Below, one piece after another: positions 31,271 through 39,902 of a stretch of 40,022 nucleotides of DNA. A model generated the notes under the pieces. It saw only the letters and a list, made by a program, of their open reading frames with translations. It was not told where the DNA came from and ran no database searches. Every line of letters starts with the position of its first letter. The first letter of the stretch is position 1. This stretch comes from Bacteroidota bacterium (lineage in GTDB: Bacteria; Bacteroidota; Ignavibacteria; Ignavibacteriales; Melioribacteraceae): assembly GCA_021801605.1 (NCBI GenBank), contig JAJYXU010000073.1, positions 1 through 40,022 on the forward strand, read 5' to 3'. A program made the translations under genes and the position numbers.

Positions 31271-31732
31271 ATGTATAATATATTTATAAGTTATTCTCAA
31301 CCAGAACTTGACTGGGCAGAGTATTTAAAACAACATTTATCATCCACAAATGTGAATGTTTATGTTGCTGAATATAACCTTCCCGCGGGAAGTAGCCTTA
31401 GTTCCGAAATATCCACTCAAATCAAAAATTGCGATTTATATGTGCTTCTATGGACACATAACTCAAGTACGTCAACTTATGTTAATCAAGAACTTTTCCT
31501 AGCAAAGACAGAAGAAAAAGATATTCTTCCGATACTATTACAACCCGGTATTCCATTTCCATCATTACTCGGTGATATAAAGTATCTTGACATTGCTAAA
31601 GCTCCAGAATTCCAGCTTTCGTGGTTAAGAGATTTTGTCCAAAAGAGAGCACAATCAAAAACCTTGTCAAATATTGTTGCACTAGGATTATTGGGGCTCG
31701 TTGCTTATGTAGCATTTCACAATAGCAATTAA
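31271..31732 (+). CDS. TIR-domain protein with C-terminal membrane helix
   Basis: A 153-residue protein. The TIR fold covers about 1-125: YNIFISYSQPELDWAEYLKQ (strand A and helix A), VNVYVAEYNLPAG, the NCDLYVLLWT strand and the helix STYVNQELFLAK, in which Glu74 is at the position of the catalytic glutamate of bacterial TIR NADases. A hydrophobic helix (NIVALGLLGLVAYVAF, about 134-149) follows, so the protein is probably tail-anchored with TIR in the cytoplasm. Many bacterial TIR proteins consume NAD+ when triggered by phage. It has no second domain to sense a trigger, so a partner is expected; the gene 102 bases downstream is the natural candidate. That gene lies in the putative invertible segment. 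Confidence 0.85.
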   Translation: MYNIFISYSQPELDWAEYLKQHLSSTNVNVYVAEYNLPAGSSLSSEISTQIKNCDLYVLLWTHNSSTSTYVNQELFLAKTEEKDILPILLQPGIPFPSLLGDIKYLDIAKAPEFQLSWLRDFVQKRAQSKTLSNIVALGLLGLVAYVAFHNSN

Positions 31733-31813
31733 GAAAGATTGGTGATGATCAACCTCATTAATGATATGGTTATTCTTTTATTAGTTAAGAAATGTTAATT
31801 TCAGTAAGCTATT

Positions 31814-31836
31814 AATAACGGATAATTAAATATTAT
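31814..31836 (+). repeat. 23-bp inverted repeat, left copy
   Basis: Begins AATAACGGATAATTAAAT and ends with the first two bases of the start codon at 31835. It is identical over 23 bases to the reverse complement of 33549-33571, with no similarity beyond on either side. Confidence 0.92.
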
Positions 31837-32701
31837 GATTGATTCAGATCTTCTTTGGAAACCACTTCTCGAGGCCGCTGGGCAAACATTAATCGGGACT
31901 CTGGGTACTTTGGCATTTGGTAAATTGTTAACCTCTATAAACAAAAAAATGATCTACGAAGGTGCTATGGATTTGTGGTATAGAGGTATTAAACAAGAGA
32001 AAATTGATGATAATTCGCGAATTTATTTCGATGGAGTGATTTCTCCCTATGCTCAACTTTTCCCAGGTGATCCATTTAAAAATGGTCAGCGATGGAATGA
32101 GTTATATTCTTTTAGTGGTAAGATTTCAAAACATGAATATCAAGCTATGGAATTTTTTGCTGGATCCGATGCAGCATTGCGTGTTGGTAGTTTTAATGGC
32201 GACACTCTGGTCGGGCTATATGCAAGGTATGGGTTTATTGGCGAGGGCATTGTTGGTGTTGTACCAACGCAACTTATTAAGAAAAAAGTCCCTCATTTTT
32301 TTGAACCGTCATTCTATGGAGTTCGCGCCATGATTAAAGCGACTCTCTCGAAATGCCCAAGTCAATTGGGGTATGTGGCACAGACAATTGCCCTAAGAAG
32401 TGGAATTGAGATTGATACTAGTGCATATAATAACTTGTGGTATTTAAAGATAAGTGACATTGATATTTACTCAAAACCAAAAGATAAAACCATTTCCTTG
32501 CTTGGCTCTCCATGGGCAGTTACTGAAAAGCGTAACCAACAGTATTTAATTCAATATGGTTATTTTTCAGACGAAACAGAACTCCATTCTTGCATTCACA
32601 ATTTACGATACTCAGATGCATGGAAATACACACAAGTATTTTATGATGATATTGATTGTCCTTCTCCAGAGATTAGTTTTAAAGAACGGTATATGTTATA
32701 A
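31835..32701 (+). CDS. Unknown protein paired with the TIR gene
   Basis: A 288-residue protein not assigned to a family. The first 40 residues (LLEAAGQTLIGTLGTLAFGKLL) are small and hydrophobic, as if inserting in or lying along a membrane. The middle has SRIYFDGVISPYAQLFPGDPF, GSDAALRVGSFNGDTLVGLYARYGFIGEGIVGVVPT and a later GSPWAVTEKRNQQYLIQYGYFSDE, beta-rich and reminiscent of an OB-like or BAM/GIDE-type domain beside a membrane, which is only an impression. It follows the TIR gene by 102 bases, so it could be its sensor or partner. Its leader and the first two bases of its start codon lie in the left inverted repeat. No Shine-Dalgarno is seen. Confidence 0.7.
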   Translation: MIDSDLLWKPLLEAAGQTLIGTLGTLAFGKLLTSINKKMIYEGAMDLWYRGIKQEKIDDNSRIYFDGVISPYAQLFPGDPFKNGQRWNELYSFSGKISKHEYQAMEFFAGSDAALRVGSFNGDTLVGLYARYGFIGEGIVGVVPTQLIKKKVPHFFEPSFYGVRAMIKATLSKCPSQLGYVAQTIALRSGIEIDTSAYNNLWYLKISDIDIYSKPKDKTISLLGSPWAVTEKRNQQYLIQYGYFSDETELHSCIHNLRYSDAWKYTQVFYDDIDCPSPEISFKERYML

Positions 32702-33547
32702 CTGTGAATTGTCTAAGCTTTTTTTTAAATAGGGAGGTAAGTAACAGTAATAATTCAAGAATTGGGGATGATAATACAAACAAGTACTTGATACTTTCCC
32801 TGTCCAGTTTTTCTGTATATTGTTTACAAGTATCTTTTTGTTCAGATATCTATTAGTCTTTGACCACAGGCAAAGTATATGAAAAATACCTGGATACTCT
32901 GGAACGGTAACAAGAGAGAACAATGAATGGAATGATTTTTGTAAAATATCCAATGTATTCAAAGTACTTTTACGTTCAAAAATGTGGCGATAGATAACAT
33001 CGCTACAAACACCATTTTCCTTAAGTTTTTGGTTAAGAGTATCAAATAAATCAATTTTTATTCCTCTGCCCTGCGCAATAAGATCAACCGCATCATTGAT
33101 AATTAAATCAAATTGTTCGTGATCACCCTTAATCTCGGCAAAAGCATCATTAATGCGTAACTCAAATCGCTTGTCACTTAAAATGTTGTGGGCATGTGAA
33201 TAGTTTTTGCTGACAATGTTGATGACTGCTTCATCATGATCGATCATCAAAATCTTTTCGACAGTATGGTATTTTAGGACTTCCAAAGCAGCAAAAAGTG
33301 ATCCTCCTCCTAAAATGAGTACGCTTCGTACTACGGGGATAAATGCAATTGGGAGATGAACAACCATTTCGTGATAAAAAGGAGCCCAGCTTTCAACATG
33401 ATGAACTTCCTGATTTATCACTAATATCTTACCAAGCAATGGATGTTTATATAAGATAATATCCTGCAAATTAGATCTGCAGGAATCAATTTCTGTCAGA
33501 TTATCAAAATTCAAAGCAAGGTCATTTGTTTCCCGAAAACTATACAC
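32696..33547 (-). CDS. Spermidine-synthase-like protein
   Basis: A 283-residue protein with GTG as the best start (no ATG before the core). It matches the spermidine/putrescine aminopropyltransferase fold: LQDIILYKHPLLGKILVIN (N-terminal beta sheet), PFYHEMVVHLPIAF, then VLILGGGSLFAALEVLKY where the family has GGGDGGxxREVL, and KILMIDHDEAVI. The canonical Asp of GGGDGG is Ser here, and the catalytic IVD is IND, so substrate use probably differs from true SpeE. It converges on the unknown gene, overlapping by six bases. Its leader is the right inverted repeat, and the recombinase gene lies upstream of it on the same strand, so in this orientation it can be read from the recombinase transcript. 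Confidence 0.8.
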   Translation of the reverse strand: MYSFRETNDLALNFDNLTEIDSCRSNLQDIILYKHPLLGKILVINQEVHHVESWAPFYHEMVVHLPIAFIPVVRSVLILGGGSLFAALEVLKYHTVEKILMIDHDEAVINIVSKNYSHAHNILSDKRFELRINDAFAEIKGDHEQFDLIINDAVDLIAQGRGIKIDLFDTLNQKLKENGVCSDVIYRHIFERKSTLNTLDILQKSFHSLFSLVTVPEYPGIFHILCLWSKTNRYLNKKILVNNIQKNWTGKVSSTCLYYHPQFLNYYCYLPPYLKKSLDNSQL

Positions 33548-33548
33548 G

Positions 33549-33571
33549 ATAATATTTAATTATCCGTTATT
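33549..33571 (-). repeat. 23-bp inverted repeat, right copy
   Basis: Exact reverse complement of 31814-31836. It ends one base before the GTG of the spermidine-synthase-like gene and lies 31 bases after the recombinase stop. Confidence 0.92.
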
Positions 33572-33601: not shown

Positions 33602-34540
33602 TTAAAATGAGAGTTTACCTCTCGGATGCTTTAACCGAAGAATCCTTCGTTTGGGAGCCTCGTTGACTTGTACATATATCTGTGTGGTGTTAATTGAGCT
33701 GTGACCTAGAATGTTTTGGATGTAACGGATATCAACTCCATTTTCGAGAAGAAGTGTTGCTACCGAATGACGAAACATATGAGGTGTTATGTGTTGATTA
33801 AAATGCAGTTTCTTTATGTAATTACGGATCATTAAACGTATCGATTGTTCTGAGAGTCTGTTATTTAATCGGTTCAAGAAAAAGTAACTCTCATTAATGA
33901 TTTTGTCTTTATTCAATTCATAATGAGTGTAGAGAACATTTAATGTTTCATTATTAGGGATGGGGATAATTCTTTCCCTATTACCCTTACCTTGCACGAG
34001 TACCTCTCCTTTGGAGAGATTTATATTTTTTAATTTAAGATTCGAGAGTTCGGATACTCTCATGCCAGTTGCAAATAACATTTCTATAACTGCGATATCT
34101 CTTACTAAAATCTTATACGAACCATTATTAAAATTTCCCCTTTTTTCTTTTTGAGCGTATATATAGTTAAATAATTTTTTTATGTACTTAAGATCAATGG
34201 TTCTAGGAAGTTGTTTTCCTTCTTTTATTTTGAGGCGTAATTTTCTAAACGGATTGGTATTAATAATATCTTCATATTCAAGATGATTCATAAATGCTTT
34301 TAGTGTTGCTATTTTTCTTTTTACGGTCTTTGGTTTGTTTTTTTGTAAAAGCGCTGTTAAATAATTACGGATGGTTTGTTTATCCAAATCAGTAATTCTA
34401 CTGTGACTCATATTCCTTTGTATAAAACAATAAAATTGATTGAGGTCAATGGAATAGGCTTTTACTGAATGAGGGCTGAGGTTCTTTTCATGTTTGCATG
34501 TTGATAAAAACTGATCGATTAATTTTTTAATTTCACACAT
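33602..34540 (-). CDS. Tyrosine recombinase (XerC/D-like)
   Basis: A 312-residue site-specific recombinase. The ATG at 34540 with AAGGGT upstream is preferred over a GTG nine bases earlier. The SAM-like core-binding domain covers about 5-95 (LSPHSVKAYSIDLNQFYCF). The catalytic residues are all present: Arg161 (TGMRVSEL), Lys185 (GKGN), His254 and Arg257 (HMFRHS), His280 (LGHSS) and the nucleophile Tyr289 (IYVQV). Its gene ends 31 bases from the right 23-bp inverted repeat, so it is the natural enzyme for inverting the neighbouring segment. Alternatively it could be the integrase of a small nested element. Confidence 0.93.
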   Translation of the reverse strand: MCEIKKLIDQFLSTCKHEKNLSPHSVKAYSIDLNQFYCFIQRNMSHSRITDLDKQTIRNYLTALLQKNKPKTVKRKIATLKAFMNHLEYEDIINTNPFRKLRLKIKEGKQLPRTIDLKYIKKLFNYIYAQKEKRGNFNNGSYKILVRDIAVIEMLFATGMRVSELSNLKLKNINLSKGEVLVQGKGNRERIIPIPNNETLNVLYTHYELNKDKIINESYFFLNRLNNRLSEQSIRLMIRNYIKKLHFNQHITPHMFRHSVATLLLENGVDIRYIQNILGHSSINTTQIYVQVNEAPKRRILRLKHPRGKLSF

Positions 34541-34641
34541 GTTTTTCACCCTTAAGTTAGTTTGATAGATACACTATTTGTTTAAATCAATATGTTTCTC
34601 AAAAGCATGTAAAGCCACTTAATAATTGAAGCAGATACAAA

Positions 34642-35442
34642 ATGATAAGAGTAACTAAACTACATATTGACCACGAAATTATGGAAGATTATAATGTTCT
34701 TGTATCGAGAGTGTCAGCAGAAGAAGCGTACCTTTTTACAAAACAGACCCCCATTCTTAACGTTATGTCATTCCTTCAAGAAACCCCATTGGACTTCATA
34801 GAAAAATATTATAATGATGATCTTTCTGAAAGAGATTCTTCTGAAACCAAATGGGCGGTGAAGTGGTTAAGTTTTGTTAGAGGTGATAATGTGTTAAGTG
34901 TTGGTTGTGGGCCTAACTTCTATGATGATGTTCAATTTTTTCCCGCAGTACCAAAAAGGTTTTATGGAATAGATGTTAACAAGAATAACATCGCATTTTT
35001 AAAATACTCTAAGCATTCGGAAATACAAAAATGGAAGATGTTTCTAAAACATCATTTTGTCCGTATGGAATTACGATGTGGGTCAATACTAAAGGAACAA
35101 CCAGAGTATGCAAACCAATTTGACACAATTTATGCGATGGGGGTGTTAGGTATGTTCAGCCGAAGTGAAACGACAAGCGTGTTTAAATATCTCAACACTT
35201 ATCTTAAGAGCGGAGGTTTATTAATTGATATTGATTGGACGGATTGTCATTTACCGTCCGATAAATTAAGGGAACGAAAAAATTACAGATGGTACTCTCA
35301 AAATGATCTCAGCATCAATGAAATTGGCAATATTATTGAAGACACTGGGCATCATATTTTAAAAGAAGAGATATACACCGTAACAAATCCCGAAACATAT
35401 GGTTGGGGAACCATTTATGGATTCATTGCACAAAAGTCTTAG
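34642..35442 (+). CDS. SAM-dependent methyltransferase-like protein
   Basis: A 266-residue protein with a Rossmann core: VLSVGCGPNFYDD (motif I, about 90-102), RFYGIDVNKNNIAFLKY (motif II), FDTIYAMGVLGMFS (motif IV region) and YLKSGGLLIDIDWTD. The N-terminal 80 residues have no known domain. The core resembles small-molecule methyltransferases and is distantly like spermidine-synthase folds; the substrate is unknown. It diverges from the recombinase gene and may take part with the spermidine-synthase-like gene in making or changing a small molecule. The next feature is an IS element inserted 53 bases after its stop. Confidence 0.75.
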   Translation: MIRVTKLHIDHEIMEDYNVLVSRVSAEEAYLFTKQTPILNVMSFLQETPLDFIEKYYNDDLSERDSSETKWAVKWLSFVRGDNVLSVGCGPNFYDDVQFFPAVPKRFYGIDVNKNNIAFLKYSKHSEIQKWKMFLKHHFVRMELRCGSILKEQPEYANQFDTIYAMGVLGMFSRSETTSVFKYLNTYLKSGGLLIDIDWTDCHLPSDKLRERKNYRWYSQNDLSINEIGNIIEDTGHHILKEEIYTVTNPETYGWGTIYGFIAQKS

Positions 35443-35486: not shown

Positions 35487-35495
35487 AATTACAAT
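35487..35495. repeat. Target-site duplication, left
   Basis: AATTACAAT, repeated at 36809-36817 on the other side of the IS. The undisturbed target would read AATTACAATATCAAG. Confidence 0.92.
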
Positions 35496-36808
35496 CACTA
35501 CTGTCCGGTTATAAGTTGAATAAACATAATTGATTATCGGAACAGTCAGTAAAATTTGTGTAATTATTTTCAGAAAACATAGAATTTATTGGCATTTTCT
35601 CAAAAACAGATATACTTACCACTTGCAAAAAAGTGTAGAGAGAGCACGCGATTTTTAATTTTTTCTTGATAATAGCAAGTAAGACATAAACAGAAACAGC
35701 AATCCAAATTTGAGTTTTGACGGCGTTGAAAGAGTTACCGTAAAAAGATTTTATCTTGAGATTCTGTTTGATCCATTTGAAAAATAATTCTATCTGCCAA
35801 CGCTGTTTGTAAAGATTTGCAATGGTGAGTGCCGGTAAAGAAAAATTGTTGGTGATGAAAACGAGTCTCTTGTCTTTCTCGACGTCAAAATATTTTATAC
35901 GTCTTAGTTTGTCCGGATAAGATTTTGACGGATAATAAGTTTTAAGAAAGACAGATTGATCGCAAATTAATCCGGTAGATTTATCTACGCGATGAGAATA
36001 AACTCTTTGAAACTGAAGGTTTGATTTTGCTCTTGTCACAAAATAAGCATTACTGGTAGTCAATTTGTAAAGTCTTTCGAAGTCGATGTAACCTCTGTCG
36101 ATGATGTAGAAAGCACCGATTTCTGTTATTAGTTCATCAAGAATATTGACATCATGAACAGAGCCGTCAGTAATGCTAATAAAGGCGGGAATGTTGTTTT
36201 GTAGATTTAGCAGCGTATGCATTTTGATAGCGCTTTTTGTTGAACGAAACTTTGCCCAAGGAAAAAGTGAAAGGCACAAATCGATAGTTGTTGAATCGAG
36301 CGCATAGATAGTTTCATTAAGTTCTTCAAAAAGATTTTCATTACGATAAAGTTCTTTGGCTTCTTTGATAAGTAGGTATGCAAAGTCGGCATATATTCTC
36401 CAATCTCTTTTTTCGTTGGCATCGGCTAATGTAGAACGAGAGATGTTACTTCTTATACCGAGGTGATATAATTTATTTTGCATTGCTCGAAGGCACGTTT
36501 CAATATCTCTTAAGCTTTCTCGATATGTCAGTTGAGCAAATGCCATAACTAAAAATTGTTCCCAGCAAGTAAATATTCGGATTCGATAATCGCCTCGATA
36601 TTTATTAACACATGAACAGAAACTATGTCTTGGTATATAATTCATGATTTGAGAAAATATTGTTTGACCTTGGTTCACTATGTCGCTCCAAATTTAGGTT
36701 ATGAAGCGACAATATTAATTTCAAATCGATAACAATGAAAAATCTTTGTAAAATATTCTATTTAAATACATTATGGCTATCAACTTCTGCCTCAACCGGA
36801 CAGTAGTG
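35496..36808 (-). mobile_element. Complete IS4-family insertion sequence, 1313 bp
   Basis: Both ends start CACTACTGTCCGGTT, exact over 15 bases as terminal inverted repeats, and a further AAGTTGA is shared with a short gap. A 9-bp target duplication flanks it. One transposase gene fills the element. Exact ends and duplication point to a recent, possibly active insertion. It landed in a gene-free place. Confidence 0.96.
35509..36678 (-). CDS. IS4-family transposase
   Basis: A 389-residue DDE transposase with GTG start and GGAG upstream. The N-terminal DUF4372-type DNA-binding part (NYIPRHSFCSCVNKYRGDY) leads into the catalytic domain with Asp128 (YALDSTTIDLC), Asp194 (YIIDRGYID) and the IS4 signature Y290-x2-R293-x3-E297-x6-K304 (YKQRWQIELFFKWIK). 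The frame is intact and full length, so the enzyme may be active. It excises and joins its own element in a cut-and-paste manner. Confidence 0.96.
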   Translation of the reverse strand: MNQGQTIFSQIMNYIPRHSFCSCVNKYRGDYRIRIFTCWEQFLVMAFAQLTYRESLRDIETCLRAMQNKLYHLGIRSNISRSTLADANEKRDWRIYADFAYLLIKEAKELYRNENLFEELNETIYALDSTTIDLCLSLFPWAKFRSTKSAIKMHTLLNLQNNIPAFISITDGSVHDVNILDELITEIGAFYIIDRGYIDFERLYKLTTSNAYFVTRAKSNLQFQRVYSHRVDKSTGLICDQSVFLKTYYPSKSYPDKLRRIKYFDVEKDKRLVFITNNFSLPALTIANLYKQRWQIELFFKWIKQNLKIKSFYGNSFNAVKTQIWIAVSVYVLLAIIKKKLKIACSLYTFLQVVSISVFEKMPINSMFSENNYTNFTDCSDNQLCLFNL

Positions 36809-36817
36809 AATTACAAT
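36809..36817. repeat. Target-site duplication, right
   Basis: AATTACAAT, identical to 35487-35495. Confidence 0.92.
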
Positions 36818-37006: not shown

Positions 37007-38620
37007 CTATTCGCTATTGTCTGAGATCGATTGCTGATATTCTTGAATTAATTCCTTCCATTCTTCGAGTTCTTCCTCAAATCGGTTCCAACTAAATCCC
37101 GTGAGGTCTACTAAATAGGATTTTGGGTTAACAAAGTTCTGATAAAGCTCGAATATATAACAAGTTTTCGCGGTTCCAAATCCGACATTTTTCTGATATG
37201 GAATTCCTTCCGGAAATATAAACTTTTGGAACCTTGCTAAAAATGAAGGCTCGAATTTAGGCCATTTTTGCCACCAGACGAGCAGAAAATTGGCTATGAG
37301 GTCAATTACCTTATCAACATCAAAATGTTCTTCCTGAAGCCTATTTAGGGCTATTTGAGTGCCCGTTATTTCTTTCTCGAGATCGCCTTTTCTTCTTTGG
37401 AATTCCTCTTTCGTGTAAGAGCCATCTTCACGCATTTCAAATACTCTCTTTTTCTTTTCTTCAAGAATAGTAAGATATTTTTCGAGCCGTCCTCTATCTG
37501 ACTTGACCTGATTTGAATTTCTTTCCGAACGTTCCTCCCAAACCTCTTGTAACAAAGCAAAGAATCTTTGTTTCGGAAGGACTCGTTGTAGAGCCATCCT
37601 GAATTTATCTTCTACTTCGGTTTTCGGCAAACTTTTTCCAAACTGCATACATGATTTGTTTTTACAATGATAATACAAGTATACTCCACCGTGTCCTTTC
37701 GAAGCACTTCCAGTCAACAATTGATTACATGTCGAACAAAGAATTGTGCGTCTTAGTGGAAAGTTGGGATTGTATCGCTCACGTTTTACCTTGTGTTTCT
37801 TCCCTTTCAAGAGTGATTGTATGGTATACAATTCTTCTTTAGTAATCATCGGTTTATGACGGCCTTCTTTTTCATCACCAGTCCAAGGATTTACGATGAT
37901 ACCAGCATAAAATTTAAGATACTTTCCCAACATACGATCTACCAATTGTGGGGATATCCGTTTCCCTCGTGTGGTTCTTAAACCGGCATCGTTGAGCATT
38001 TGTACAATATCTTTTTTCCGATAGCTTCCAGTTGCATATTCTTTCAAGGCTCGTTGTATAATAAGAAAAGTTTTCTCATCCGGCGGATCGGGTTCTGTTT
38101 TTTTTTCGTCTCGTTTCCTGAAATGCAAACACGTATAACCGATCGGCGGTTTCCATGGGAAAAGACCTTGATTGATTCGAGCCAACATCCCATCGGTACA
38201 TCGTTGTTTCCGAATTGCGTTGTCATATTCTGCTGCTCCGGCAAGTACGGTTTCAATAAACTTTTCGGCTGGCTTGTTTCCAATAGGTTCGGTTACGGAA
38301 TGAAGCGATGTTCCGTACCCTGATAGAATTTTGCGAACAGCAAAGTGATCCTCCGTATTTCGAGCGAAGCGATCAACACGCAATACCACAAAAGCTTGTA
38401 CTTGATTTTTGTTTTTACGGCAGAATTCAAGTGCCTCAAGGAATTTTTTTCGATTGTTCAAGCTGAGGTCCTTGGCTGTCTCGCCTTCCTCTTTGAAAGC
38501 CGCAACGACTTCGATCCCTTTTTGTTCACAGTATTTACGGCAAAGCTCCTCTTGGAATTCAAGAGATGTCCCCTTAACTTGTTCGTCGCTCGAAACGCGT
38601 GTATATAATATCCCTTTCAT
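37007..38620 (-). CDS. Second large serine recombinase
   Basis: A 537-residue serine recombinase; the ATG at 38620 has AAAAGGA upstream and was chosen over the TTG at 38695. The catalytic start is GILYTRVSSDEQVKG with Ser10, and LRVDRFARNTEDHF holds conserved arginines. A recombinase domain (PIGYTCLHFRK), a zinc-ribbon (CSTCNQLLTG, CKNKSCM) and a long coiled-coil follow. It is not a copy of the recombinase at 21.2 kb; the two share only the family framework. It may belong to a second element nested in the island, or to an older one next to it. The 198 bases downstream to the IS show no gene. Confidence 0.94.
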   Translation of the reverse strand: MKGILYTRVSSDEQVKGTSLEFQEELCRKYCEQKGIEVVAAFKEEGETAKDLSLNNRKKFLEALEFCRKNKNQVQAFVVLRVDRFARNTEDHFAVRKILSGYGTSLHSVTEPIGNKPAEKFIETVLAGAAEYDNAIRKQRCTDGMLARINQGLFPWKPPIGYTCLHFRKRDEKKTEPDPPDEKTFLIIQRALKEYATGSYRKKDIVQMLNDAGLRTTRGKRISPQLVDRMLGKYLKFYAGIIVNPWTGDEKEGRHKPMITKEELYTIQSLLKGKKHKVKRERYNPNFPLRRTILCSTCNQLLTGSASKGHGGVYLYYHCKNKSCMQFGKSLPKTEVEDKFRMALQRVLPKQRFFALLQEVWEERSERNSNQVKSDRGRLEKYLTILEEKKKRVFEMREDGSYTKEEFQRRKGDLEKEITGTQIALNRLQEEHFDVDKVIDLIANFLLVWWQKWPKFEPSFLARFQKFIFPEGIPYQKNVGFGTAKTCYIFELYQNFVNPKSYLVDLTGFSWNRFEEELEEWKELIQEYQQSISDNSE

Positions 38621-38717
38621 ATAATCCTTTTTGTTGTTTAAACAGGTATCGTTTAAAAGCTTTAAAGTAAAGACCCGAAAAACACTGATAAACAAAGGAT
38701 AGTTTTAAATATGTGGA

Positions 38718-39005: not shown

Positions 39006-39902
39006 ATGTTAATTCACATCACTTTTGCCGAGAGAAAAAGTTTTTTAGTCTTAAGAAATGTATCAATGCGTCATGAATTTCTTCTTCATGACCATCCTAA
39101 GATTAAAATGATTTCTTACTTCGGCGGAAAATCATATCTCGCGAACTGGATCATCTGCCACTTTCCTGAAAAGTATCAGCAGCAAACGTATTGTGAAGTA
39201 TTCGGTGGAGGCGGTTGGGTACTTTTCAAAAAGGAACCGAGCAAAATCGAAGTCTATAACGATCTCAATCAGGACCTGGTGAACCTCTTCCGGGTTATTC
39301 GTGACAACTACAAGCAGTTCGCGCATCGAGCCAACTGGTCAATGCACAGCCGGGCTATGTTTGATGAAGCGATAGAAAAGCTTAAGAATGACCAGTTTCT
39401 TTCCGAAACGGAACGAGCGGTATTTTATGCGCTCCGGCAGGTGCAGTCATTCTCAGGAACCGGGACTCACTGGACGTACCGTCTTTCATCACACCATAGT
39501 TTTTCAGGTAAGTGGCTGCCTTTTCTTAAAAGGATGGAACTCATCAATGCGAGACTCAAAAAAGTTCAGATCGAATGCCTCGATTTTGAGGAGGTAATTA
39601 AAAAATATGACTCGAGAACTACTTTGTTCTATCTCGATCCCCCTTATGTCGATACAGAACGGTATTACAACTCGAACAATGTCGAGTTCAAAAAAGAGGA
39701 TCACTTTCGACTAGTTCGTATCTTGAAAAGAATTAAAGGTAAATTTGTACTTAGTTATTATGAACACAAATTCGTGAGAGCGAATTACAAGCAGTATTCA
39801 ATCCTCAGCAAGAATATGCCGAAATACAGCATTAACAGTTCTCGAAACACAGGCATCAAAACGAAACCGACTGGAAAGGAGTTGTTGATTAAAAACTTTT
39901 AG
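39006..39902 (+). CDS. D12-class DNA adenine methyltransferase (Dam-like)
   Basis: Up to 298 residues; later ATGs at 39066 and 39108 are also possible, and the last gives MISYFGGKSYL, close to the usual start of the family. Motif I is MISYFGGKSYLANWI (SAM binding), followed by EVFGGGGWVLF, and the catalytic motif IV is LFYLDPPYVDTERYY (DPPY). Such enzymes methylate N6 of adenine, Dam-like at GATC or another short site. No restriction enzyme gene is next to it, so it is probably a lone methyltransferase protecting the element or changing expression. The last 120 bases of the window after it hold no gene I can see. Confidence 0.92.
   Translation: MLIHITFAERKSFLVLRNVSMRHEFLLHDHPKIKMISYFGGKSYLANWIICHFPEKYQQQTYCEVFGGGGWVLFKKEPSKIEVYNDLNQDLVNLFRVIRDNYKQFAHRANWSMHSRAMFDEAIEKLKNDQFLSETERAVFYALRQVQSFSGTGTHWTYRLSSHHSFSGKWLPFLKRMELINARLKKVQIECLDFEEVIKKYDSRTTLFYLDPPYVDTERYYNSNNVEFKKEDHFRLVRILKRIKGKFVLSYYEHKFVRANYKQYSILSKNMPKYSINSSRNTGIKTKPTGKELLIKNF

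Follow-up and report, generated by a model that had tools for sequence, protein, structure and literature searches.

The invertible G segment of Mu and C segment of P1 exchange related tail-fibre parts through the action of serine recombinases (Gin and Cin, respectively), which operate with an enhancer. In Streptococcus pneumoniae, the tyrosine recombinase PsrA inverts hsdS DNA between repeats lying inside related hsdS genes, thereby generating chimeras (PMC7096588, PMC4948785), and in Clostridioides difficile the tyrosine recombinase RecV carries out promoter inversions that flip short regulatory DNA (PMC5903667, PMC5386303). Known tyrosine-recombinase switches flip promoters or reshuffle related gene parts, whereas the element described here would exchange whole partner genes. 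It occupies positions 31814-33571 of a 40,022-nucleotide stretch of a Melioribacteraceae genome (assembly GCA_021801605.1, contig JAJYXU010000073.1; the whole stretch is hereafter called the window). Judging from its sequence and from that of its relatives, this segment is probably an active inversion switch, and its family is apparently a widespread, undescribed variant of invertible DNA. Our literature search, which covered few subscription papers and preprints and is thus weak evidence, returned no description of such a family of gene-pair switches.

The segment is bounded by two copies of a 23-bp sequence, AATAACGGATAATTAAATATTAT, namely the far recombination site, on the side away from the recombinase (31814-31836, + strand), and the recombinase-side site, which is the same 23 bp inverted (33549-33571, - strand). 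Both were identified by an exact repeat search and by comparing motifs and spacers across 29 segments; they match at 23/23 positions, or 25/26 if three outer bases are added. The first two bases of the ATG of gene A (288 aa; 31835-32701, + strand) are also the final two of its site, and the GTG start of gene B, at 33547, is one base inward of its own (283 aa; 32696-33547, - strand). The two genes are convergent and overlap by 6 bp. Outside the segment, 30 bp separate the right site from the end of the open reading frame (ORF) of an XerC/D-like tyrosine recombinase (315 aa; 33602-34549, - strand), the presumed inverting enzyme. An initial annotation of the window had reported an exact inverted repeat, too long to be a chance match, reaching to the starts of a convergent gene pair beside a complete recombinase gene. 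We confirm the repeat to the base and find that the recombinase possesses all its catalytic residues (R164, K188, H257, R260, H283 and Y292). As for chance, the window holds no exact copy of the 18-bp core of the site besides these two; the sole further match with up to three mismatches falls within the recombinase gene (33820). At that tolerance, 0.2 hits are expected by chance, and 0/100 shuffles gave as many as three. No further exact copy of the site occurs across the 3.24-Mb assembly, and a genome-wide promoter motif was rejected on this ground.

The PF00589 match of the recombinase (E-value 4.2e-41) makes it a tyrosine, not a serine, recombinase. A role in XerC/XerD dimer resolution was rejected, the scores being 244.9 and 228.8 bits for equivalog cut-offs of 335.15 and 329.6, respectively; the window genome holds two more Xer-like matches. 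An integron was rejected as well, with 102.1 bits for the integron-integrase model (cut-off 265) and one inverted site pair in the window, not an array of direct attC-type sites. Using aligned recombinases as the query, we scanned 84,980 genomes and found at least 80 loci, from seven bacterial phyla (Bacteroidota, Ignavibacteriota, Balneolota, Bacillota, Campylobacterota, Spirochaetota, Desulfuromonadales) and, in one case, from an archaeon (Methanocorpusculum). The window segment is no one-off: it is one member of this large family, which a quick tree separates with 100% support from two host Xer proteins used as the outgroup. In the window's taxonomic order, the closest recombinases are those of G075 (66%), the sister of the window recombinase in the tree, G004 (51%) and G012 (50%). 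In the G075 locus, the recombinase and the identical 23-bp site are followed by genes for a methyltransferase and, convergent with it, a GNAT-like protein, and then by the same site inverted; the locus of G012 is laid out as in the window, but with another site (AACGAAGGATAACTAAAGGTTAT) and two other genes, and the G004 contig begins exactly at its site. This layout, a recombinase gene and two convergent genes between inverted sites, recurs in many of the loci with other genes inside. A viral origin was rejected, no relative being found among the viral contigs searched; three unannotated 'Bacteriophage sp.' contigs have related recombinases, and no two-site segment was seen in the one that we examined (L194).

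Relatives sharing the recombinase family, the motif and the layout have inverted exactly at the sites. Two complete plasmids of Aliarcobacter cryaerophilus, pM830MA (L193) and pACRY43158 (L195), carry their payload in opposite orientations, with the breakpoints at the sites. Their recombinase sides (985 bp, 100% identity) and far flanks (2579 bp, 99.85%) are both collinear, the payload (3458 bp, 99.9% identical) is reversed, and flipping it in silico in pM830MA produces a single collinear alignment of 6985 bp (99.91%). Several assemblies, some of them of isolates, also break at the sites. Three contigs are made up of a segment with one site per end, namely those of G107 (3778 bp), G113 (3582 bp) and G112 (6940 bp), the last being from the isolate Flavivirga jejuensis KACC 14158; contig C29 of G106 was excluded from this class because its two sites differ in the spacer. 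In G098, G101, G103, G109, G114 and G004, both flank contigs share the same final bases beyond the site, as would be expected if each flank joins both segment ends. Among the 80 loci listed, the contig stops no more than 260 bp downstream of the recombinase in 23 cases, where 1.06 would be expected, and no more than 260 bp upstream of it in 7, the latter being clostridial and several of them having their site upstream of the recombinase. Since a repeat of 23 bp would not by itself be expected to interrupt assembly at usual k-mer lengths, the sequenced populations probably held both orientations. Separately, pACRY43158 has two elements of the family (L191 and L195), whose recombinase genes share about 74% DNA identity and whose spacers differ; each carries a STAND and ATP-grasp payload. 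In Aliarcobacter, an 11-bp inverted repeat (AATATCCTATT / AATAGGATATT; L193:930-985, in pM830MA), located between the recombinase stop and the site, could give a hairpin in RNA made from the recombinase side, and from that side alone.

In most loci, the site has the form AATRAMKGATAAYnnnnnnTTAT and stands directly after the recombinase stop, pointing away from the recombinase. In one clostridial subgroup it precedes the recombinase start rather than following the stop (by about 150 bp in L084, L085, L097, L115, L123, L127 and L129), and the segment would be upstream of the recombinase. The 7-nt spacer is identical within 29/29 two-site segments (28 loci), and in 22/812 comparisons between elements (2.7%), with 21 distinct spacers overall. 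Moreover, mismatches within site pairs are confined to positions 1-8, the outer arm, which would remain with the flank upon inversion. Spacer identity and mismatches limited to the outer arm are what strand exchange inside the spacer predicts. Knowing that the repeat touches the start codons, and that its GGATAA resembles a -10 box or a Shine-Dalgarno stretch, one could regard it only as a shared promoter or translation-start element. We consider this reading as very improbable, given that the repeat occurs solely at recombinase-linked segments or their remnants, that its spacers are the same within but different between elements, and that many Bacillota elements have their site about 60-220 bp away from the genes. 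As a sole role it is refuted by the Aliarcobacter inversion exactly at the site; a double role is possible. Outside Bacillota, most start codons fall between -2 and about +8 relative to the site's inner edge, and inversion would therefore join a different coding sequence to fixed upstream DNA. Two further features of sites were noticed. First, L068 has right behind its first segment a second one (L068:11106-13787), encoding a pentapeptide-repeat protein and an aminotransferase, whose spacer is CTAAACA, that of the first being CTCTTTA; the stretch examined holds no separate recombinase for it. Second, the Lachnospiraceae elements L099, L108 and L122 have inverted repeats of about 90-130 bp, which in L108 and L122 hold extra degenerate site-like motifs within the segment, possibly accessory binding sites.

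The payload genes, grouped by BLAST clusters and Pfam, fall into recurrent pairs. A STAND/AAA-TPR ATPase is paired with a D-Ala-D-Ala-ligase-like ATP-grasp protein in L078, L092, L106, L128, L172, L191 and L193/L195, the recombinase-side partner being the STAND protein in L078, L092, L191 and L195, and the ATP-grasp protein in L106, L128 and L193. A large restriction-like AAA protein is paired with a glycosyltransferase in L065, L066, L116, L122 and probably L088 and L171; here the recombinase side is occupied by the restriction-like protein (L065, L088 and L116) or the glycosyltransferase (L066 and L122). Other combinations are a pentapeptide-repeat protein and an ATP-grasp/radical-SAM enzyme (L062, L099, L107 and L181); a SIR2-type large ATPase and an ATP-grasp enzyme (L098 and L173); a putative membrane protein and a small enzyme (L058, L064 and perhaps L068); and a GNAT and a methyltransferase, found in the window's taxonomic order (L057, methyltransferase on the recombinase side) and in Aliarcobacter (L192, GNAT on that side), these proteins being 34% and 42% identical. 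The convergent pair of L086 (Maribellus maritimus), a ThsA (PADLOC, 1e-98) together with a TIR protein whose ThsB matches are weaker, is the only Thoeris pair among the elements scanned. To judge from these similarities, the paired genes often look like members of bacterial immune or conflict systems. As the same pairs recur across phyla, the switch would exchange the partners of a pair. The initial view of an inversion exchanging two whole genes is supported by the inversion in relatives; its description of these genes as unrelated holds for their sequences, but the pairs are not random.

Whole pairs can also be replaced. The plasmid pAFAEC (L192) shares its flanks with pM830MA (97.8% and 90.7%), the former holding the GNAT and methyltransferase pair and the latter the ATP-grasp and STAND pair, and homology ends at the sites. 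Whole pairs are thus replaced at site boundaries, via the recombinase or via homologous recombination in the flanks. We envisaged that the sites mainly swap payload cassettes between elements, in an integron-like capture of which inversion would be a by-product; the replacement in pAFAEC would fit with this, and so would a relative of gene A. In G001, a broken gene A homologue (78% identity) stands beside the same site and has no recombinase; its homology to the window's gene A starts within 7 bp of the site, and the DNA farther out is unrelated. However, paired inverted sites with identical spacers and convergent genes are needed for inversion, not for capture, one payload is seen in both orientations, and homologous recombination in the flanks could also replace pairs. 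We thus regard capture as an unlikely main function of the sites.

In the window itself, gene B encodes a spermidine-synthase-like enzyme (PF01564, E-value 1.5e-31) that scores under the curated cut-offs of specific polyamine aminopropyltransferase models. Gene A gave no match in Pfam and PDB searches, and its AlphaFold2 model has a pLDDT of 33-35. Besides the G001 remnant, a homologue in a Treponema metagenome-assembled genome (43%) follows a recombinase and a site, and gene A thus belongs among the payload genes of such elements. Among 395 genomes of the phylum, G001 was the only one with a gene A homologue, and plasmids had none. Neither gene A nor gene B had a PADLOC match, and no second copy of the exact pair was found among the elements examined. 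The window pair, a spermidine-synthase-like enzyme plus a second protein, nevertheless fits the pattern of an enzyme paired with a different protein and, by analogy with related elements, A and B may be the partners of one conflict-type system. The G001 remnant and its site are in a region (L060:7110-14349) that also contains a TIR gene 77% identical to that of the window, as well as HerA-like and SIR2-like genes, and that looks like a defence island.

From these lines of evidence, we propose the following mechanism. The adjacent tyrosine recombinase would exchange strands inside the spacers of the 23-bp sites and invert the DNA between them. As each gene begins where the inner edge of its site lies, the flip would exchange entire coding sequences between two flanks that stay in place. 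In state 1, gene A would lie behind the flank on the TIR-gene side and gene B behind the recombinase gene; in state 2, the reverse. A promoter in the far flank (31733-31813, + strand, analysed by a promoter scan), which would have to serve the far-site gene, would express the adjoining partner, while the other would give no transcript, or a little by co-transcription with the recombinase. In Bacillota elements, a sigma-70 consensus promoter occurs in 6/11 far flanks (each p <= 0.03 versus shuffles) and in 0/11 recombinase-side flanks. Together with the start codons at the site edge, these far-side promoters favour a fixed far-side promoter turning on one partner per state, an expression model towards which we incline slightly.

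Several points weigh against this proposal. No convincing consensus promoter was found in the far flank of the window, and the difference between far-side and recombinase-side promoters over all phyla is not significant (p = 0.09), which limits the promoter claim to Bacillota. The role of the recombinase is deduced from linkage. Thoeris defence requires both proteins, so that the L086 pair fits badly with strict one-at-a-time expression. The chief rival to exclusive expression is that the segment inverts and both genes are expressed in each state, the flip shifting the ratio of the partners instead of turning them on or off. Read-through is plausible, as the gene on the recombinase side invariably points the same way as the recombinase and starts close after its stop, and the recurrent pairs, Thoeris above all, suggest a need for both products; consensus promoters found only on the far side in Bacillota argue the other way, and we give this ratio model an appreciable, though lower, probability. 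Finally, the window copy was assembled as one piece in a single orientation over the 40-kb contig. With the G001 relative being a broken remnant devoid of recombinase, this could mean that the family inverts while the window copy is locked or decayed. Such a loss of activity has a small probability in our view, in that the recombinase ORF is intact with all its catalytic residues, the sites match perfectly and both genes are open. From this linkage and these residues we infer that the linked recombinase is the inverting enzyme; the window copy itself probably flips by means of it.

With regard to the neighbourhood, a TIR-domain gene (153 aa, hydrophobic C-terminus; 31271-31732, + strand) ends 81 bp before the far site. 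A TIR gene as a fixed part of the elements was rejected, since relatives' elements do not consistently have one, and this neighbour is of uncertain membership. On the other side, a class I SAM-methyltransferase-like gene (34642-35442), divergent from the recombinase and with a weak CmoB likeness, is followed by an IS4-family insertion sequence (35495-36809; transposase 35509-36678, - strand) with 16-bp perfect terminal inverted repeats. A large serine recombinase (562 aa, Resolvase and Recombinase domains; 37007-38695) lies 3 kb from the tyrosine recombinase, as another enzyme of site-specific recombination; after it comes the gene for a D12-class DNA adenine methyltransferase (39006-39902).

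The recombinase and the site motif make the family easy to find, and its members offer many candidate two-gene systems that may escape searches for co-directional operons; a known defence pair, Thoeris, can occupy such a switch. Tentatively, these cross-phylum invertible elements might keep two-component immune or conflict systems mutually exclusive, with one partner per cell and pairs moving as site-cut cassettes, a proposal that we regard as rather doubtful. If true, flips would turn one clone into two kinds of cell that complement each other, one with the enzyme and the other with the effector or sensor. This raises the question of why a population would let the partners of a single system alternate.

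Similarly to L086, the window has a TIR gene, but without a ThsA beside it, unlike Thoeris. Integrons also rely on a tyrosine recombinase, with payload genes replaced at short sites near its gene; here the sites are short, spacer-bearing and in inverted pairs around two convergent payload genes. FimB/FimE and RecV share with our family a tyrosine recombinase, short inverted sites and two-state heterogeneity, whereas here the genes lie in the invertible DNA and the promoter, if any, remains outside. As with PsrA and hsdS, a tyrosine recombinase stands beside inverted repeats, and inversion may likewise create differences in a defence-related function within a clone; here the sites are at start codons, and the genes exchanged are entire and dissimilar. 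Lastly, as in the Mu G and P1 C segments, convergent alternatives lie between inverted sites, with the recombinase gene beside one of them and the promoter, here a presumed one, outside, and the flip would choose the gene placed behind the outside DNA, but here through a tyrosine recombinase, with whole dissimilar genes, and on chromosomes and plasmids of many phyla.
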